DNA of 35,532 bases from Verrucomicrobiota bacterium. Its GTDB lineage: Bacteria > Verrucomicrobiota > Verrucomicrobiia > Chthoniobacterales > UBA10450. Location of the stretch: contig QHOX01000172.1 of NCBI GenBank assembly GCA_003219465.1, positions 1 to 35,532 on the forward strand, read 5' to 3'. Below are positions 1,985 through 33,059 of the stretch, piece after piece. Position 1 is the stretch's first letter, and each line of letters starts with the position of its first letter. A model generated the notes under the pieces. It worked only from the letters and a program-made list of their open reading frames with translations, did no database searches and was not told where the DNA came from. Both the position numbers and the translations under genes were made by a program.

Positions 1985-2012
1985 GGTTAGGAGTTGAACG
2001 TTGAGAGTTGAT
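1985..2012. repeat. Degenerate heptanucleotide tract (4 units)
   Basis: Four consecutive seven-base units read ggttagg, agttgaa, cgttgag and agttgat. The tract covers the stop codon of the gene at 1987-3345, so the last residues of that protein (about QLSTFNS) and its TAA stop come from repeat sequence. Confidence 0.75.
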
Positions 2013-3345
2013 GGACAGCAGCCCTTCGCGCGTGAGACTCCACACTTGTCGCTTTACGCAGTTCGCGCAGATACAAGGCAAGGCTTCGAAACATCTGCGA
2101 CTGTCCCCAACGATGCATAGGAACATTGTCCCAACCCAGGTATAGCCTCCGGGAGCGAAATGATCCGTCGCGCTTGACCCATACTTCCAAAACATGCGCG
2201 ACGACCTTCTCTAATGTCGTATCCAACGCGGGAAAGCGGTCGCGCAAGAGCAGGCATAGATTAACGCACTCGGCGCAATCGTAGAGTTCGCGCTTGTAAA
2301 CTGTCAGGCGAGGAGCCCGTGAGAACGGCTTGGGCAGACCGTTCGCATCGAAGAGGTTGTTCAAGTAGTAACTCACTCCTTTGCGCAGTGCATCGAGCGT
2401 TGCCGTGTGCCCAGTCAGAGCGTGTATCTTCGCCAGCGCTTTCATAACGAAGCAGGTGTGATAATGATCGACGAAATCGCGCACCCCATCGACGGCATAG
2501 AACCAGGAGCCGTCGGGATTCTGATTTTGCAGGACAAAGTTCAGGTTCCGCTCGGCAGTCAACCAGTACTCTTCCTTTAAGAAAACTTGTGACGCGCTTG
2601 TGAGCAGAAAAGAGCGATAAGCTGCGGCATTGATAATTCCGCCTGTGTCAAATGGTGTATAGGAACAACTGCTGGCATTTCCCGAGATCGGAAAATCCTT
2701 GATGTCCTTGAAGGCATGACGCGCGATCGACTGGAGGATTTGCTTGTATTCGCCCGCTTGCGTTGAGAGTTGAGAGTTGAAAGTTGAGAGTTCAAAATCC
2801 TGCTCGAGGATTTGGCACACTTGGAGAAAGGCCTCGTACGCATAAGGAGTCGAGGTAATCAACGGAGTCTGGTTTTTGATGGTGCCATTACGAGTGACCC
2901 AATCGTAGGGATAACCCCAGCAATATTCTGCGAATCCTGGCGACCGGCTTTTCTTTAGTTCTTGAAGGAAGTGGATGGCCCTTCTCAAATGAGTCTCGTC
3001 GTTTGTGACTTCAAAGAGGAAAGCGAAACCCATAGCGTAGTGGGCGTCGGCGATGGGAAATCTGGTCGGGTGATGGAAAAACCGTCTCGCGGACGGCAGG
3101 AAGGCCTCGAAGGCAATCATTGGAGCTACCGCGACTGTGCCAACAAGCTCATGGCGGTAGTAAAGCGCTTTAGCCCGTCGTCCAATCGGGCCGGCAAAAA
3201 AGCTCTGATGGTCCCACGACGTTTCACCGTACGCGTCCAGCCAGGCGATGAAGCGTTTGACTACACCCGCCACATCATCCGTGCTGTTCTTATTGATAGG
3301 ACTGATGACTGGAGACGGATGACTGATAATGCTATCCATACACAT
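1987..3345 (-). CDS. Alpha/alpha-toroid-like protein of the EPS locus, function unknown
   Basis: The 452-residue protein is soluble, with no signal peptide or membrane segment. It has repeated helical hairpins with aromatic and glycine-rich turns, such as NPDGSWFYAVDG and GWDNVPMHRWGQSQMFRSL. This pattern is typical of (alpha/alpha)6-barrel glycan-active or terpenoid-cyclase-like folds. I do not recognise the exact family, and similar EPS proteins often carry misleading names. A role in trimming or modifying the polymer is inference from the neighbourhood. The gene is odd because seven-base repeat tracts occur at its N-terminus (about codons 6-17), internally (near LSTFNSQLST) and at its C-terminus. 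It starts 7 bases after the stop of the GT2 gene. The true start could lie downstream of the repeat-coded N-terminus; the conserved-looking part begins near DDVAGVVKRF. Confidence 0.72.
   Translation of the reverse strand: MCMDSIISHPSPVISPINKNSTDDVAGVVKRFIAWLDAYGETSWDHQSFFAGPIGRRAKALYYRHELVGTVAVAPMIAFEAFLPSARRFFHHPTRFPIADAHYAMGFAFLFEVTNDETHLRRAIHFLQELKKSRSPGFAEYCWGYPYDWVTRNGTIKNQTPLITSTPYAYEAFLQVCQILEQDFELSTFNSQLSTQAGEYKQILQSIARHAFKDIKDFPISGNASSCSYTPFDTGGIINAAAYRSFLLTSASQVFLKEEYWLTAERNLNFVLQNQNPDGSWFYAVDGVRDFVDHYHTCFVMKALAKIHALTGHTATLDALRKGVSYYLNNLFDANGLPKPFSRAPRLTVYKRELYDCAECVNLCLLLRDRFPALDTTLEKVVAHVLEVWVKRDGSFRSRRLYLGWDNVPMHRWGQSQMFRSLALYLRELRKATSVESHARRAAVHQLSTFNS
2761..2795. repeat. Degenerate heptanucleotide tract inside a coding region (5 units)
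   Basis: Five units read cgttgag, agttgag, agttgaa, agttgag and agttcaa. The tract lies inside the toroid gene and is translated as ELSTFNSQLSTQ, a low-complexity segment unlike the rest of the protein. Confidence 0.8.
3294..3328. repeat. Degenerate heptanucleotide tract at a gene start (5 units)
   Basis: Five units read tgatagg, actgatg, actggag, acggatg and actgata. They encode the SIISHPSPVISPIN segment at the N-terminus of the toroid protein. This is a different unit sequence from the gttgag-type tracts in the same gene. Confidence 0.65.
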
Positions 3346-13901: not shown

Positions 13902-14459
13902 TTAGCGCAATAACCGACGAAGGAGGCGAGCGGGGTTGCCAGCGTAAATGCCGGGGACGGTTATATCTTTGGTAACAACTGCGCCGGCTCCTATGACCAC
14001 GTAATCGCAGATTGTGACCGGAAGGATCGTAGCATTTGTTCCAACACTTACCCGATTGCCAAGTTTGGTCGCACGCCAAAGCTCTGGTTTTCCGGCAGGT
14101 CCACCGTCGTCGAACAGATCGTTAATGAACATTGCGCCGTGAGAAATGAAGCAGTCGTCACCTATATTGACGAGATCGCAGATAAAGGAATGGGATTGAA
14201 TGCGGCAGCGCTTCCCGATCGTTGCCCCCTTTTGTATCTCGACGAACGGCCCGATGAAACTATCATCTCCGATCGTACAGCCATAGAGATTGACCGGCTC
14301 AACAACGGAGACGTTTTCACCGAACTTCACATCGACGATGCCGATTGATCGAAGCCGCGGCGCAGTGTTCGAATCTGATCGCTCCGCGATTGGGTTTACA
14401 AACGCGCTCGGAGAGCGGGCTTCACCTTCGCGTTTGGCTGTATCAAGACCACGCATCAT
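13902..14459 (-). CDS. Left-handed beta-helix N-acetyltransferase, WbpD-like
   Basis: Hexapeptide repeats run through GCTIGDDSFIGPFVEIQKGATIGKR in two blocks and continue to VVIGAGAVVTKDI and AGNPARLLRR, the usual C-terminal end of sugar O/N-acetyltransferases. The insertion GAMFINDLFDD with its conserved Asn and the later ATKLGNRVSVGTNATI match WbpD/WlbB-type enzymes, which acetylate the 3-amino group of the UDP-diamino-uronate using acetyl-CoA. The ATG at 14459 (followed by a second ATG) lies 14 bases after the stop of the oxidoreductase. The first 35 residues look non-conserved, so the true start could be later. The frame is open upstream inside the oxidoreductase gene, but that stretch has no hexapeptide character. 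Confidence 0.88.
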   Translation of the reverse strand: MMRGLDTAKREGEARSPSAFVNPIAERSDSNTAPRLRSIGIVDVKFGENVSVVEPVNLYGCTIGDDSFIGPFVEIQKGATIGKRCRIQSHSFICDLVNIGDDCFISHGAMFINDLFDDGGPAGKPELWRATKLGNRVSVGTNATILPVTICDYVVIGAGAVVTKDITVPGIYAGNPARLLRRLLR

Positions 14460-17352: not shown

Positions 17353-19638
17353 TTAGCAGTCGGCGGTTTCCAAAAGTTCGCTGATTGAATTCAGAAACGT
17401 GAGTTTCTCGCGGCTCCAAGTGTGCGAAAGATAGATTTCCTGACCGCGCTTAACTGTTTCCGACACTTCGACGGGATGAGAATAAGCGAATTCGATTTTC
17501 CGGGCGAGATCGTCCGCATCCCCGACCTCGAAAAAGATCAGATCGTTCTCCCCGAAATAATCCTGAATGCCTTCTGTTTTCGGTACAATCACGGGCTTCC
17601 CAAGTGCCAGGTATTCCAAAATACGCGTAGGTGTGTTGATTTCGGTAAAGACGTTTCGGTGGTTTGGGATAATCCCAAGGTCACAACTGTCAATGGCCTT
17701 GACGATCTCCGGGAGATTACGAACGCCCAGATATTCGATGTACGTATCCAGTCCCCGTTGCTGGGCCGATTTCATCACTTCCTCGAAGAAGGAGGTTCGC
17801 TGACCGCAAACTTTCAGCCGGACAGACGGGATTATCTTTCTGACCTTCTCCAGAGACTCAACTGCCAGGTCGAAACCGTTTCGGTGGACTAATGAGCCGT
17901 GATAAAGGATGACAAAAGGCCCGGACCCATTGCCGTTCTTTCCATTCACACCCTGAGCGTCACCGCGCTGGAAGCGGAAGACCTTGTCATCAGGCGTATT
18001 TATTACAACTTTGATTTTATCCGGCCGACAACTGCGGGAGGAGTAGATCTTCTTGCAGGCCAGATTCACCGTTAGCACGAGATCGGCAAAGCCGATGCTC
18101 CACCTTTCAAGTCGCTTTACGAGACGCACATTAAGGCTCTTCGCCGGCAGATCGAAGATCGCCTGCATCAGTTCTGGCATCGGATCGTGGAGGTCGAGGG
18201 CAATCTTCGCGCCCAGGGCTTTTGGAATCGCTGCGCTGAAAACGAGCGCGTCGGGCATGTTATGGACATGCACAAAGTCATATCTGCGAACCAGAGAACG
18301 AATAGTGAGAAAGAAGAACGATCGCAATATAAAAGCAGAATATTGGCTGACATATCTCAGCCTGCCGCGGCGGTGACGCTGCATCGGTACCCGGAAGACT
18401 CTTACCTTGTTGATTAGCTCTCGCCGGGATTCACCTCGATTCTGCTGAAGACATAACAGGTCCACCGTCACGCCTTCCTGCGCCAGCGCCTCGGCGGCCC
18501 GGCGGGGACGAGGATCAGCTGGGTAATAAGAAAACAGAAGAACAGCAGCATGCTTCCCATTCAAGCGATTGAAGGAAGGGCTCACGAGCTGACGCTCGAA
18601 TTGCCCGTTACGCGAATCGAGCTCTTGGTGCACCTTTCTAGACCGACGAACATGGGCCGCGACCTCCCGCGGAACAGAGTGCCAATATTGGCCAGCGTAT
18701 CGGGAGCGGACATGTTCGAGGAATTGTTTGTAAAGCTCTACCGGAAATTCGCGAGGCATTCTTGCCGACCCGTTGGAGAACGCCGTGTAATCCGGATGGA
18801 CATTAACGAGGACCATCCCACCGTGCTCGGCGATCCACGCGAGTTTCTTGAACCAGATTTCGGGCGTTTGTTCGCGAAGCAATAGGAACAGCGTCGAATC
18901 CTGAGGCAATGTATATGGGAGCTCAACGTAACCGTCGCCTCCAGCGGCCGAATGGCGAAGCTCGAATGACGAATCACGAACATTCGGGAGCGACAAAGGG
19001 TGATTGGTGATCGGTGATCGGTGATCGGCATTAGTTCGAGGTACCCAGAACGGAAAAATTGTGCCGACACCGTCGGGTTGAGGCTCAAATGGGTCGGTGT
19101 CGAAGGTCGAGGCATCATATGCAACCTCGAGCTGGTGCAGCCATTCCAGCCTATGAAACATGAAACCGGAGCGAAATCCCTGGGCATCCCATTCCCGAAT
19201 GTAGCGGTTAATTTGCCGGGCTTTATCCGCGAATCCGCGGGAGTTCTGGTAAAGCTTGCCATCGTGGTGAAGGTCATGCACACCAACCTCGAACCCATTC
19301 CGGGTGAGCTCGTGCCGCAGATCGCGCGAGACTCTGTAATCGCCTTGCGGAATGAAATTGAAGGAGGAACGAAAGCCCAGCTCCTTCTCGAGTTCCATTA
19401 GCTGCCGGCAGCGGGCCAAGCCTATGGGACCTTCAACATCATGGGTAAGCACGAATGCAAACTTCTTCCCATCCGGCCAGCCAACCCAGTTTTCAGGCGG
19501 GCGTTCCGAGCCAGGCAAAATCGGCCAGACACGAGAGATGTGTGCGCGTTTTCGACGTGCAAACCAGCGCCGGATCGCCATGCGAGTCGAAACCGGAACT
19601 GCAGGCTTTAATTGGTAATAGACCCAGGTGCGAAACAC
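17353..19638 (-). CDS. Polysaccharide deacetylase-glycosyltransferase 4 fusion
   Basis: The 761-residue protein joins two enzymes. Residues about 60-330 are a NodB-type deacetylase: LTHDVEGP (metal Asp at 66-67), GFEVGVHDLHHDG (metal histidines near 121-125) and VLVNVHPDY. Residues about 363-761 are a GT4 transferase: HVHNMPDALVF, DLHDPMPELM, YHGSLVHRNGFDLAVESL and EINTPTRILEYLALGKPVIVP, the last holding the conserved EX7E nucleotide-sugar site. Such a fusion would couple transfer of a sugar to deacetylation of the same or previous residue. Residues about 202-233 are low-complexity and encoded by a heptanucleotide tract inserted in frame between two deacetylase strands. The start is GTG at 19638; an ATG at codon 20 is an alternative. 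Confidence 0.88.
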   Translation of the reverse strand: MFRTWVYYQLKPAVPVSTRMAIRRWFARRKRAHISRVWPILPGSERPPENWVGWPDGKKFAFVLTHDVEGPIGLARCRQLMELEKELGFRSSFNFIPQGDYRVSRDLRHELTRNGFEVGVHDLHHDGKLYQNSRGFADKARQINRYIREWDAQGFRSGFMFHRLEWLHQLEVAYDASTFDTDPFEPQPDGVGTIFPFWVPRTNADHRSPITNHPLSLPNVRDSSFELRHSAAGGDGYVELPYTLPQDSTLFLLLREQTPEIWFKKLAWIAEHGGMVLVNVHPDYTAFSNGSARMPREFPVELYKQFLEHVRSRYAGQYWHSVPREVAAHVRRSRKVHQELDSRNGQFERQLVSPSFNRLNGKHAAVLLFSYYPADPRPRRAAEALAQEGVTVDLLCLQQNRGESRRELINKVRVFRVPMQRHRRGRLRYVSQYSAFILRSFFFLTIRSLVRRYDFVHVHNMPDALVFSAAIPKALGAKIALDLHDPMPELMQAIFDLPAKSLNVRLVKRLERWSIGFADLVLTVNLACKKIYSSRSCRPDKIKVVINTPDDKVFRFQRGDAQGVNGKNGNGSGPFVILYHGSLVHRNGFDLAVESLEKVRKIIPSVRLKVCGQRTSFFEEVMKSAQQRGLDTYIEYLGVRNLPEIVKAIDSCDLGIIPNHRNVFTEINTPTRILEYLALGKPVIVPKTEGIQDYFGENDLIFFEVGDADDLARKIEFAYSHPVEVSETVKRGQEIYLSHTWSREKLTFLNSISELLETADC
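18951..19034. repeat. In-frame heptanucleotide tract of 12 units (84 bp) inside the fusion gene
   Basis: Twelve seven-base units run without interruption: aatggcg, aagctcg, aatgacg, aatcacg, aacattc, gggagcg, acaaagg, gtgattg, three copies of gtgatcg, then gcattag. Twelve units are 84 bases, exactly 28 codons, so the reading frame of the deacetylase is kept. The translation contains DHRSPITNHP and SFELRHS, quite unlike NodB-family sequence. Confidence 0.85.
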
Positions 19639-31755: not shown

Positions 31756-32601
31756 TTATTCTGAGAGAAACGCCACGACGACGCGCGCTGCGTCCGCAAC
31801 AATTGCAGCACGATCATCGGCTGAAGATGTCGAGCCGATCGAGTAAATAGCAAATACAACCGGCGCACGCCCGGGCGGACGAATAATGGCAACATCGTTT
31901 GTCGCTCCGTTTCCGCATCGTCCCGTTTTGTCCCCGACGGTCCACGTCTTTGGAACGCCGGCCCGAATCATCAGTGCGCCAGTCTCGTTGTGCCGCAACC
32001 AATCTTCGAGCTGATGCCGTGACGATTCGGATAACACATTGTCCAAGACCAACCGTTGTATGTCTGCGCACATTGCCGCAGGGGTTGTGGTGTCGCGTTC
32101 ATCGCCGGGAATGGCGCTATTCAATTCCGGTTCTTTCCGATCAAGTCTCGTCATCTCATCGCCAATGCTGCGCACAAAATTTGTCAGTCCAACAGGTCCG
32201 CCAATTGTATCCAGTAAAAGATTGCCGGCTGTGTTGTCACTCTGTTCGATTGCCGCCGCGCACAAGGCACCAAGGGTCATACCCCCGTCTTTAAGATGTG
32301 CCTTCGTGACTGGCGCATATTCCAAAATGTCCTTAGCACCATAAGATACAAACCGATCCAATTTCTCTTGTCTGTCGTCGACGCGCTTCAAGACCACCGC
32401 AGCAGCGAGAAATTTAAAGGTGCTGCACATCGGGAAACGTTCTTCCGATCGGTAATCGATACCTTTGCCGCTGCCAGTGTCCAGCGCAGTCACACCGATT
32501 CGAGCGCCGGTTCGCTGCTCGATAGATCGAATCCGGTTCGCGAAATCGCTGGTCGATCCAGGCGTACTCGCAGCGAGTAACAAAAGCAAAACTGCTACCA
32601 T
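31756..32601 (-). CDS. Class A serine beta-lactamase with a Cys69/Cys238 pair
   Basis: The 281-residue precursor starts MVAVLLLLLAASTPGS, a signal peptide, then reads RIGVTALDTGSG. Active-site blocks in order are FPMCSTFKFL (Ser70, Lys73), EQSDNTAG (Ser130-Asp131-Asn132), RKEPELNSA (Glu166, Asn170) and VGDKTGRCG (Lys234-Thr-Gly). Cys occupies both positions 69 and 238, the pair that forms the disulfide in class A carbapenemases such as KPC and SME. Residue 220 is Met and 237 is Arg, unlike those enzymes, so spectrum cannot be predicted. The ATG at 32601 overlaps the last codons and stop of the thioesterase gene, so the two are probably translated together. An upstream start at 32661 would put 20 polar residues before the signal peptide. 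Confidence 0.92.
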   Translation of the reverse strand: MVAVLLLLLAASTPGSTSDFANRIRSIEQRTGARIGVTALDTGSGKGIDYRSEERFPMCSTFKFLAAAVVLKRVDDRQEKLDRFVSYGAKDILEYAPVTKAHLKDGGMTLGALCAAAIEQSDNTAGNLLLDTIGGPVGLTNFVRSIGDEMTRLDRKEPELNSAIPGDERDTTTPAAMCADIQRLVLDNVLSESSRHQLEDWLRHNETGALMIRAGVPKTWTVGDKTGRCGNGATNDVAIIRPPGRAPVVFAIYSIGSTSSADDRAAIVADAARVVVAFLSE

Positions 32602-33059
32602 CGATGATACGCAGGATGGCCTTCCTCCACCGCAACGAACACTCCCCGACATGTGGCGCAAACTTTTCCTCCGGCGGTCAGTGTGCCCTCAATGGTCGCA
32701 CGGTCATCAGTGATCTCAGCAACCTTGGCAGAGAGAAACACAGAGTCGTTCGTCGGTGTAGGGCGCAGCATTTTGATGGCGTATTCTGCAGTGACTGTGC
32801 ACGGTGGGCGATTTTCACCTGCACGTTTCATCAAGTGATACGCTGCCGTCCAGTTGCAATGGCAATCGAGTAACGTGCCGATGATCCCGCCGTTCAAGGC
32901 TCCCTTGAACGCTTCATATTTTTTCTCCGGTTTCCATTCAGCGACGATCTCGCCGTTCTTCGGGAAACTACGAATGTGCAAGCCGTCTGGGTTTGCCGGA
33001 CCGCAGCCGAAGCAAACGTTTCGAGGCGCGTATTTTTCCTGAAGCGATTGTTCGCTCAT
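32595..33059 (-). CDS. Hotdog-fold thioesterase (PaaI/4HBT-like)
   Basis: The 154-residue protein begins MSEQSLQEKYAPRN, then NVCFGCGPANPDGLHIRSF, NGGIIGTLLDCHCNWTAAY (the central helix of the hotdog fold carrying the usual Asp near its start), and VTAEYAIKMLRPTP. These match 4HBT/PaaI-like acyl-CoA thioesterases. Substrate is unknown; its position after prpC could suggest hydrolysis of propionyl- or related CoA esters, which is inference. The last residues (AYHRW) and stop overlap the beta-lactamase start by seven bases. Confidence 0.88.
   Translation of the reverse strand: MSEQSLQEKYAPRNVCFGCGPANPDGLHIRSFPKNGEIVAEWKPEKKYEAFKGALNGGIIGTLLDCHCNWTAAYHLMKRAGENRPPCTVTAEYAIKMLRPTPTNDSVFLSAKVAEITDDRATIEGTLTAGGKVCATCRGVFVAVEEGHPAYHRW

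Follow-up and report, generated by a model that had tools for sequence, protein, structure and literature searches.

A translated heptamer tract in a verrucomicrobial genome and a small palindromic repeat dispersed in its genus

The 35,532-nucleotide stretch of DNA analyzed here (the window, MAG data) contains a heptamer-rich tract at positions 18949-19034, inside a gene for a predicted carbohydrate-active enzyme. How did seven-base repeats come to be part of a protein, and are they related to repeats elsewhere in the genome? The initial annotation saw them as a spreading seven-base element, tolerated in the protein because its 12 uninterrupted units, a multiple of three, would keep the frame. 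According to the current analysis, the tract probably (at a probability of roughly 0.6) includes part of a small palindromic repeat, interspersed and common in the genus, in a degenerate and translated form.

The tract, its host gene, and a length-variable loop

The period of 7 is real and far above chance. The best period-7 segment (GGTGATC ×4.3, the array in Table 1) scores 20, whereas no period-7 segment scored above 10 when the window was dinucleotide-shuffled 50 times; TRF concurs on period 7 at the tract, and when periods from 4 to 15 were scanned, none but 7 and 14, its multiple, exceeded the shuffles. The tract is also translated in frame, as residues about 202-230 of the host open reading frame (ORF). 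It is not uninterrupted, consisting of two blocks, CGAATGGCGAAGCTCGAATGACGAATCACGAA and GGTGATTGGTGATCGGTGATCGGTGATCGG, that are separated by a non-repeat stretch. In the proposed 12-unit register, 8 units fit, split over the two blocks: units 1 to 4 are recognizable as AATGGCG, AAGCTCG, AATGACG, and AATCACG, and units 8 to 11 as GTGATTG followed by three copies of GTGATCG; units 5 to 7 and 12 are not recognizable.

Table 1. Coordinates of the heptamer-containing features of the window and of the host ORF
Feature	Position	Strand	Basis
Host ORF, 761 aa: CE4/NodB-like N-terminal domain fused to glycosyltransferase	17353..19638	-	Pfam and predicted fold
In-frame insertion, 48 nt, holding the arm core 18950-18981 (GAATGGC GAAGCTC GAATGAC GAATCAC GAAC)	18949..18996	+	Alignment, profile match
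GATCACC array, 4.3 units, sense orientation	18999..19028	-	Period scan, TRF, homologue alignment
Second in-frame heptamer tract, CAACTCT/CAACTTT ×4.4, in the 15-residue insertion FELSTFNSQLSTQAG of ORF 1987-3345	2762..2792	-	Period scan, TRF, homologous loci

The glycosyltransferase domains of the host ORF, which we take to be of the GT4 type, were found by Pfam. For the N-terminal 345 amino acids, Pfam returned no match, even at an E value of 10, so that the earlier designation of this part as a NodB domain is borne out by predicted fold and not by sequence profile: the predicted fold matches the putative polysaccharide deacetylase 3rxz (E value of 2.4e-6) and CE4 enzymes. The underlying structure model was built from 17 sequences and has a mean pLDDT of 66; residues 180-241, including conserved residues at either end of the loop described below, have pLDDT values under 50. 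The N-terminal domain (18604-19638, minus strand) might represent a divergent deacetylase family.

The tract falls into a loop that is flanked by the motifs IFPF and GY(V/L)ELPYTL. The comparison covered the window and 19 homologous loci, 20 rows in all, 18 of them distinct (L007 and L012 are duplicates of L034 and L036). The loop ranges from 12 to 38 residues; the longest is that of the window, the next has 30 residues, and the commonest length is 22 (7 of the 20 rows). Heptamer arrays that score at least 12 are found in 3 of the 18 distinct loops, those of L018 (22), the window (20), and L006 (15). The homologue L025 (G021:C139) is split between two frames ahead of the loop (residues 153-174), perhaps through an assembly error.

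Relative to its closest homologues, L005 and L006 (68% identity), the window has in the alignment one in-frame insertion of 48 nucleotides, that listed in Table 1. Part of the tract is thus an insertion in a length-variable loop. Given that 48 is divisible by 3 and not by 7, the argument from 12 units has no basis. The GATCACC array is the second block and adjoins the arm-like insertion; it aligns with heptamers of L005 and L006, and its place is taken by GAATCAC-type heptamers in L006 and L018, with traces in L005. In the tree, L004 groups with L005 and L006 and L018 is found elsewhere, with 9 of the 15 inner branches open; the arrays in these loops may go back to one ancestral array or to several gains.

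A dispersed palindrome with heptamer arms

Heptamers of the type found in the insertion belong, elsewhere in the genus, to a palindromic repeat of ∼125 to 135 bp in which each side is largely a heptamer run, with a variable center in between. The consensus left arm reads GAATGAC-GAAGCAC-GAATGAC-GAATGAC-GAA, and the right arm is its inverse, TTCGTCATTCGTCATTC. In 27 aligned copies, the sequence runs GAATGACGAAGCACGAATGACGAATGACGAAAGAAGC.CGAATGCTCAAATGACGAA, a variable stretch of about 20 bases, and then TTCGTCATTCGGATTTCGTCATTCCTTCG.CATTCGTCATTCGTCATTCGTCATT. One strand of the element folds as a long hairpin: all 11 copies tested do so, with z scores from -3.6 to -7.1 and none of 200 shuffles as stable. 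The element thus has terminal inverted repeats, like MITEs. Selection on RNA pairing was considered and, hairpin notwithstanding, gained no support: none of the eight base pairs proposed by RNAalifold shows compensatory changes, and four loci had no match in Rfam.

The element is widely dispersed. Three consecutive GAATSAC units (one mismatch allowed) match in 26 of 39 relatives from the same order, the backwards control giving no match in any of the 39; some of these matches form opposed pairs 40 to 120 bp apart, and the palindrome was seen on reading them. BLAST with one copy (L201:1390-1523) found whole or partial matches in all 25 genomes searched of the genus g1 (34 pieces in G000, the genome of the window) and in 3 of the 14 other genomes of the order. 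In a draw from the whole class, with few candidates scored per genome, a second copy used as the query had matches, many of them single-arm, in 12 of 113 genomes, its own included; the best match outside its own genome, in G183, shows 75% identity over nearly the full length. Within 378 kb of unmasked sequence from the window's own genome, near-full copies are present in two stretches (C125 and C225), a copy in C350 is cut by the end of the stretch, and C248 holds one further copy. In C248, near position 14125 (L003:1490-1570), a GTGATC-type unit was also seen, by reading, to form hairpin-like inverted arms, ∼900 bp from a GAATGAC palindrome.

Most of the copies that were read are near stop and start codons. 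With genes taken as mechanically called ORFs, 30 gene 3' ends were found within the 150 nucleotides searched around 35 copies, 27 of them no more than 20 nucleotides from the element, and 13 of the 35 neighboring gene starts are within 8 nucleotides of it. A rate of copies inside genes was not retained: 16 of 46 matches were scored as "in ORF," including that of the window, and most of the others were ORFs that begin or end inside the element. The reverse complement of the arm is open in all three frames in 21 of 25 copies, compared with 1 of 25 for the forward arm; in 10 of the 25 copies, taken whole, every frame is closed.

Occupancy was followed at one orthologous site, the query being a 1,141-base stretch surrounding a G000 copy. 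Among the matches listed, 32 loci have both flanks (G035 was set aside); in 6 of them the alignment continues across the element, in 17 the site is empty (a gap of at most 18 nucleotides), and in 9 it is occupied by 42 to 138 nucleotides of other sequence. Of 20 loci that were fetched, 12 could be read throughout, and at some of the replaced sites short repeats of another kind (GTTGAATC type) or mixtures were present. Occupancy of this site varies, no direction of change being implied. Because G018 is listed twice, with one locus filled and one empty, paralogy may account for some of this variation; filled and empty sites have diverged too far for a target-site duplication to be read. At the site orthologous to L241:1501-1632, four loci of other species (L275, L283, L284, and L286) carry different short repeats (GTTGAATC type) in the same intercistronic gap, which gives the impression of one repeat family taking over from another.

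Where would such an element obtain its mobility? Y1 transposases are common in these genomes (168 Y1_Tnp matches in 34 of 39), and their association with REPs (the REP/RAYT model) was considered. It is possible but gained little support: among 30 of the 168 loci that were fetched, no Y1 gene is flanked by the element and only L220 has short, weak element-like pieces.

Origin of the tract

A profile of the element, built from 24 copies, none of them from the window (30 were fetched, and 6 that were partial or redundant were left out), matches positions 18950-19037 with 23.4 bits (E value of 6e-5). First-order Markov controls reached at best 12.4 bits in 300 simulated windows and 6.4 bits in 1,000 local simulations. 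Nevertheless, heptamer arrays of other dialects equal this score (23.5 bits for L121 of G073 and 23.4 for L180 of G063), so that any CGAA-type heptamer array might be mistaken for the element by its score, and the identity of the arm is the stronger evidence. The window arm agrees with the 32-base consensus at 28 positions; true copies in unbiased stretches agree at 27, 26, and 25 positions in G000 and at 29 and 27 in G015. In the 69 stretches examined from 14 other genomes, agreement never exceeds 24 positions, and the heptamer-rich G073, one of the 14, reaches 23. Only the arm (18950-18981) aligns confidently, the remainder of the match being weak (posterior digits mostly 2 to 5). This arm-like sequence lies within the 48-nucleotide insertion, in the loop region of residues 180-241. 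The window lacks a second, inverted arm, and its fold is correspondingly modest (z score of -2.4, with 7 of 200 shuffles as stable). With a single arm and no full hairpin, it is referred to here as a piece of the element and not as a copy.

The idea that a spreading element is tolerated in the protein therefore appears broadly right, the unit being better described as a palindrome of ∼130 bp with heptamer-array arms than as a bare seven-base element. The arm would have arrived by whatever spreads the element. Its survival could be attributed to a loop that tolerates changes in length, to a length divisible by three, and to an orientation that is usually stop-free in all frames. Slippage and point mutation may afterwards have caused the heptamer runs to expand, shrink, and decay.

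The main competing explanation, which is possible although on the unlikely side, is that both arrays grew in place by polymerase slippage from a short heptamer-like seed in the loop and that the resemblance to the element reflects a shared dialect and not descent. A heptamer array of the same dialect that was never within a palindrome would look much alike. This is in line with the presence of arrays in the same loop of L006 and L018 and of traces in L005, and with the scores of the other-dialect arrays. Unit order also adds little: the 24 reorderings of the four units score 16.5 to 24.1 bits, so that the match rests more on unit type than on order, even if GAAGCTC is second, as in the element, in 6 of the 7 best orders. 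Furthermore, slippage is said to favor heptamers, perhaps because 7 nucleotides contact the polymerase (PMC4692102 and PMC4679880). Against growth in place, the extra sequence of 48 nucleotides is no multiple of 7, GAAGCTC stands beside GAATGAC in the insertion just as in places 1 and 2 of the dispersed element, and the arm is as close to the consensus as the arms of true copies. Growth at independent loci also does not predict units that are common to unlinked loci of one genome and differ between genomes.

Descent from the palindrome is far better supported than the two remaining alternatives. Surface-sugar glycosyltransferase genes are often phase variable, and a 7-base unit, not being a multiple of three, would shift the frame whenever one was gained or lost; the GATCACC array could then be a switch that turns the enzyme off. 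With only 4.3 units, and those imperfect, the array makes such a contingency locus very improbable; that the compared loops are all in frame is weak evidence against it, since the rows were selected as single alignments across the loop. It is harder still to credit an ordinary low-complexity linker with a heptamer appearance due to chance or codon bias. Homologous loops are indeed free to vary in length and sequence, but the period score, the profile score, and the arm identity described above all exceed their controls, and none of 1,000 shuffles matched the lag-7 excess across the 18 distinct loops. A heptamer residue in the 13 array-free loops was also sought and discarded as unspecific, because their lag-7 value (0.328, compared with 0.272 in shuffles; 0 of 1,000 as high) is equaled at lags 11 and 18.

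Known repeats and other heptamer arrays

The kinds of repeats closest to the element are REP/MITE sequences and the Rickettsia palindromic elements (RPEs). RPEs are palindromic repeats of ∼150 bp with many copies, nearly half of them in ORFs, where they are tolerated in frame and each encodes a conserved peptide (PMC10969869). The palindrome and the many copies are shared; in the window, the in-frame insertion of 48 nucleotides lies in an ORF of 761 aa but holds one arm, itself no palindrome. Differences are the single coding piece found here, the arms made of tandem heptamers, and the other phylum. REPs are palindromic and often located just downstream of genes, with some inside genes; GTAG REPs, also inside ORFs, are described in Opitutus terrae, so that palindromic repeats within genes were already known in this phylum, and CGTC REPs occur without a flanking transposase (PMC3733652). 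Typical REPs are 20 to 40 bp long with one unpaired GTAG or CGTC end, whereas the element is 125 to 135 bp long, has heptamer-array arms, and shows no GTAG end; CGTC, by inspection, occurs within many of its heptamers and not as a single end tag. As its length, its ends, and the unflanked Y1 loci all disagree, the element was not classed as a REP. The enterobacterial units RU-1, RU-2, and RU-3 are MITE-like, intergenic, and 103 to 168 bp long, and they occur within genes as well, with the frame open (PMC2759123); they come from other taxa, and heptamer arrays do not appear in the abstract that describes them.

Tandem heptamers have been reported as GGGAATC in Xanthomonas, GGGGA(T/C)T in Nostoc, and TAACTGA in Beggiatoaceae (PMC4692102, PMC4679880). 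Similarly to the arrays described here, these are mostly intergenic, use particular units in each genome, and include some inverted pairs; here, in contrast, heptamers form the arms of a defined, alignable palindrome of ∼130 bp with a conserved inner part. In the SPADE survey, heptamers are the most abundant intergenic tandem DNA repeats in numerous species, without a clear indication of what they do; being a survey, it offers no palindrome or mobility model in the part available (PMC6344855).

The likeness to cyanobacterial short tandemly repeated repetitive (STRR) sequences extends to tandem heptamers that are often located between genes, and no further, the two being likened by description. 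No previous report of this heptamer-armed element was found in the literature searched. Because the heptamers described here are parts of an alignable palindrome with filled, empty, and replaced orthologous sites, their origin and spread can be tested by genome comparison. More speculatively, and with the odds clearly against it, heptamer arrays in this lineage might form the arms of hairpins that spread by themselves, are gained and lost, and displace each other at shared short gaps and loops in proteins, with an own unit dialect in each genome, no dedicated transposase, and single arms in genes giving rise to new protein loops. If so, the commonest intergenic tandem repeat, whose cause is so far unexplained, would in this lineage consist of hairpin arms.

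Heptamer tracts recur in the genome, as the initial annotation had anticipated, and in the genus. Period 7 does not predominate in the sample from G000, where two tracts score at least 13, as many as for periods 6 and 10. For the second tract of the window (Table 1), 5 of the 7 homologous loci (L128-L131 and L134) show a cleanly empty site, and G026 and G037 carry unrelated sequence there; it is of a different unit type and gave no match to the element profile. The C-terminal end of the same ORF (1987-2015) also consists of CAACTCT-type heptamers, up to the stop codon. A TCAACTY count of 27/39 was discarded, as its backwards control is a nearly identical string and hence uninformative.

Unit dialects differ by genome, as illustrated by G073, in which few units dominate: its 513 kb contain 35 period-7 tracts, with AACTCCG in 18 and AACGGGT in 11 of them. 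Many of their flanks are alike, and these arrays belong to interspersed repeats of larger size and composite structure. In L117 (15950-16420, for example), L122, L145, L157, and L158, such composites occur in both orientations, joined to irregular CACGGCGAA, GCAGAACACGCAGA, and CCACAGATTACACAGATT runs. Long heptamer arrays are located at or near contig ends in G069 (C33, C109, and C125) and G073 (L121, L149, and L160), so that assemblies may be interrupted by them and their copy numbers counted too low. In G012 (C439; L060/L200), a single long array shifts in register from AATGACC to GAATCAC units, which shows how unit types change within an array. Elsewhere in the window, an ORF at 31756-32661 (minus strand) matches the Pfam family Beta-lactamase2 (E value of 4e-43), which is given here as a family name only.
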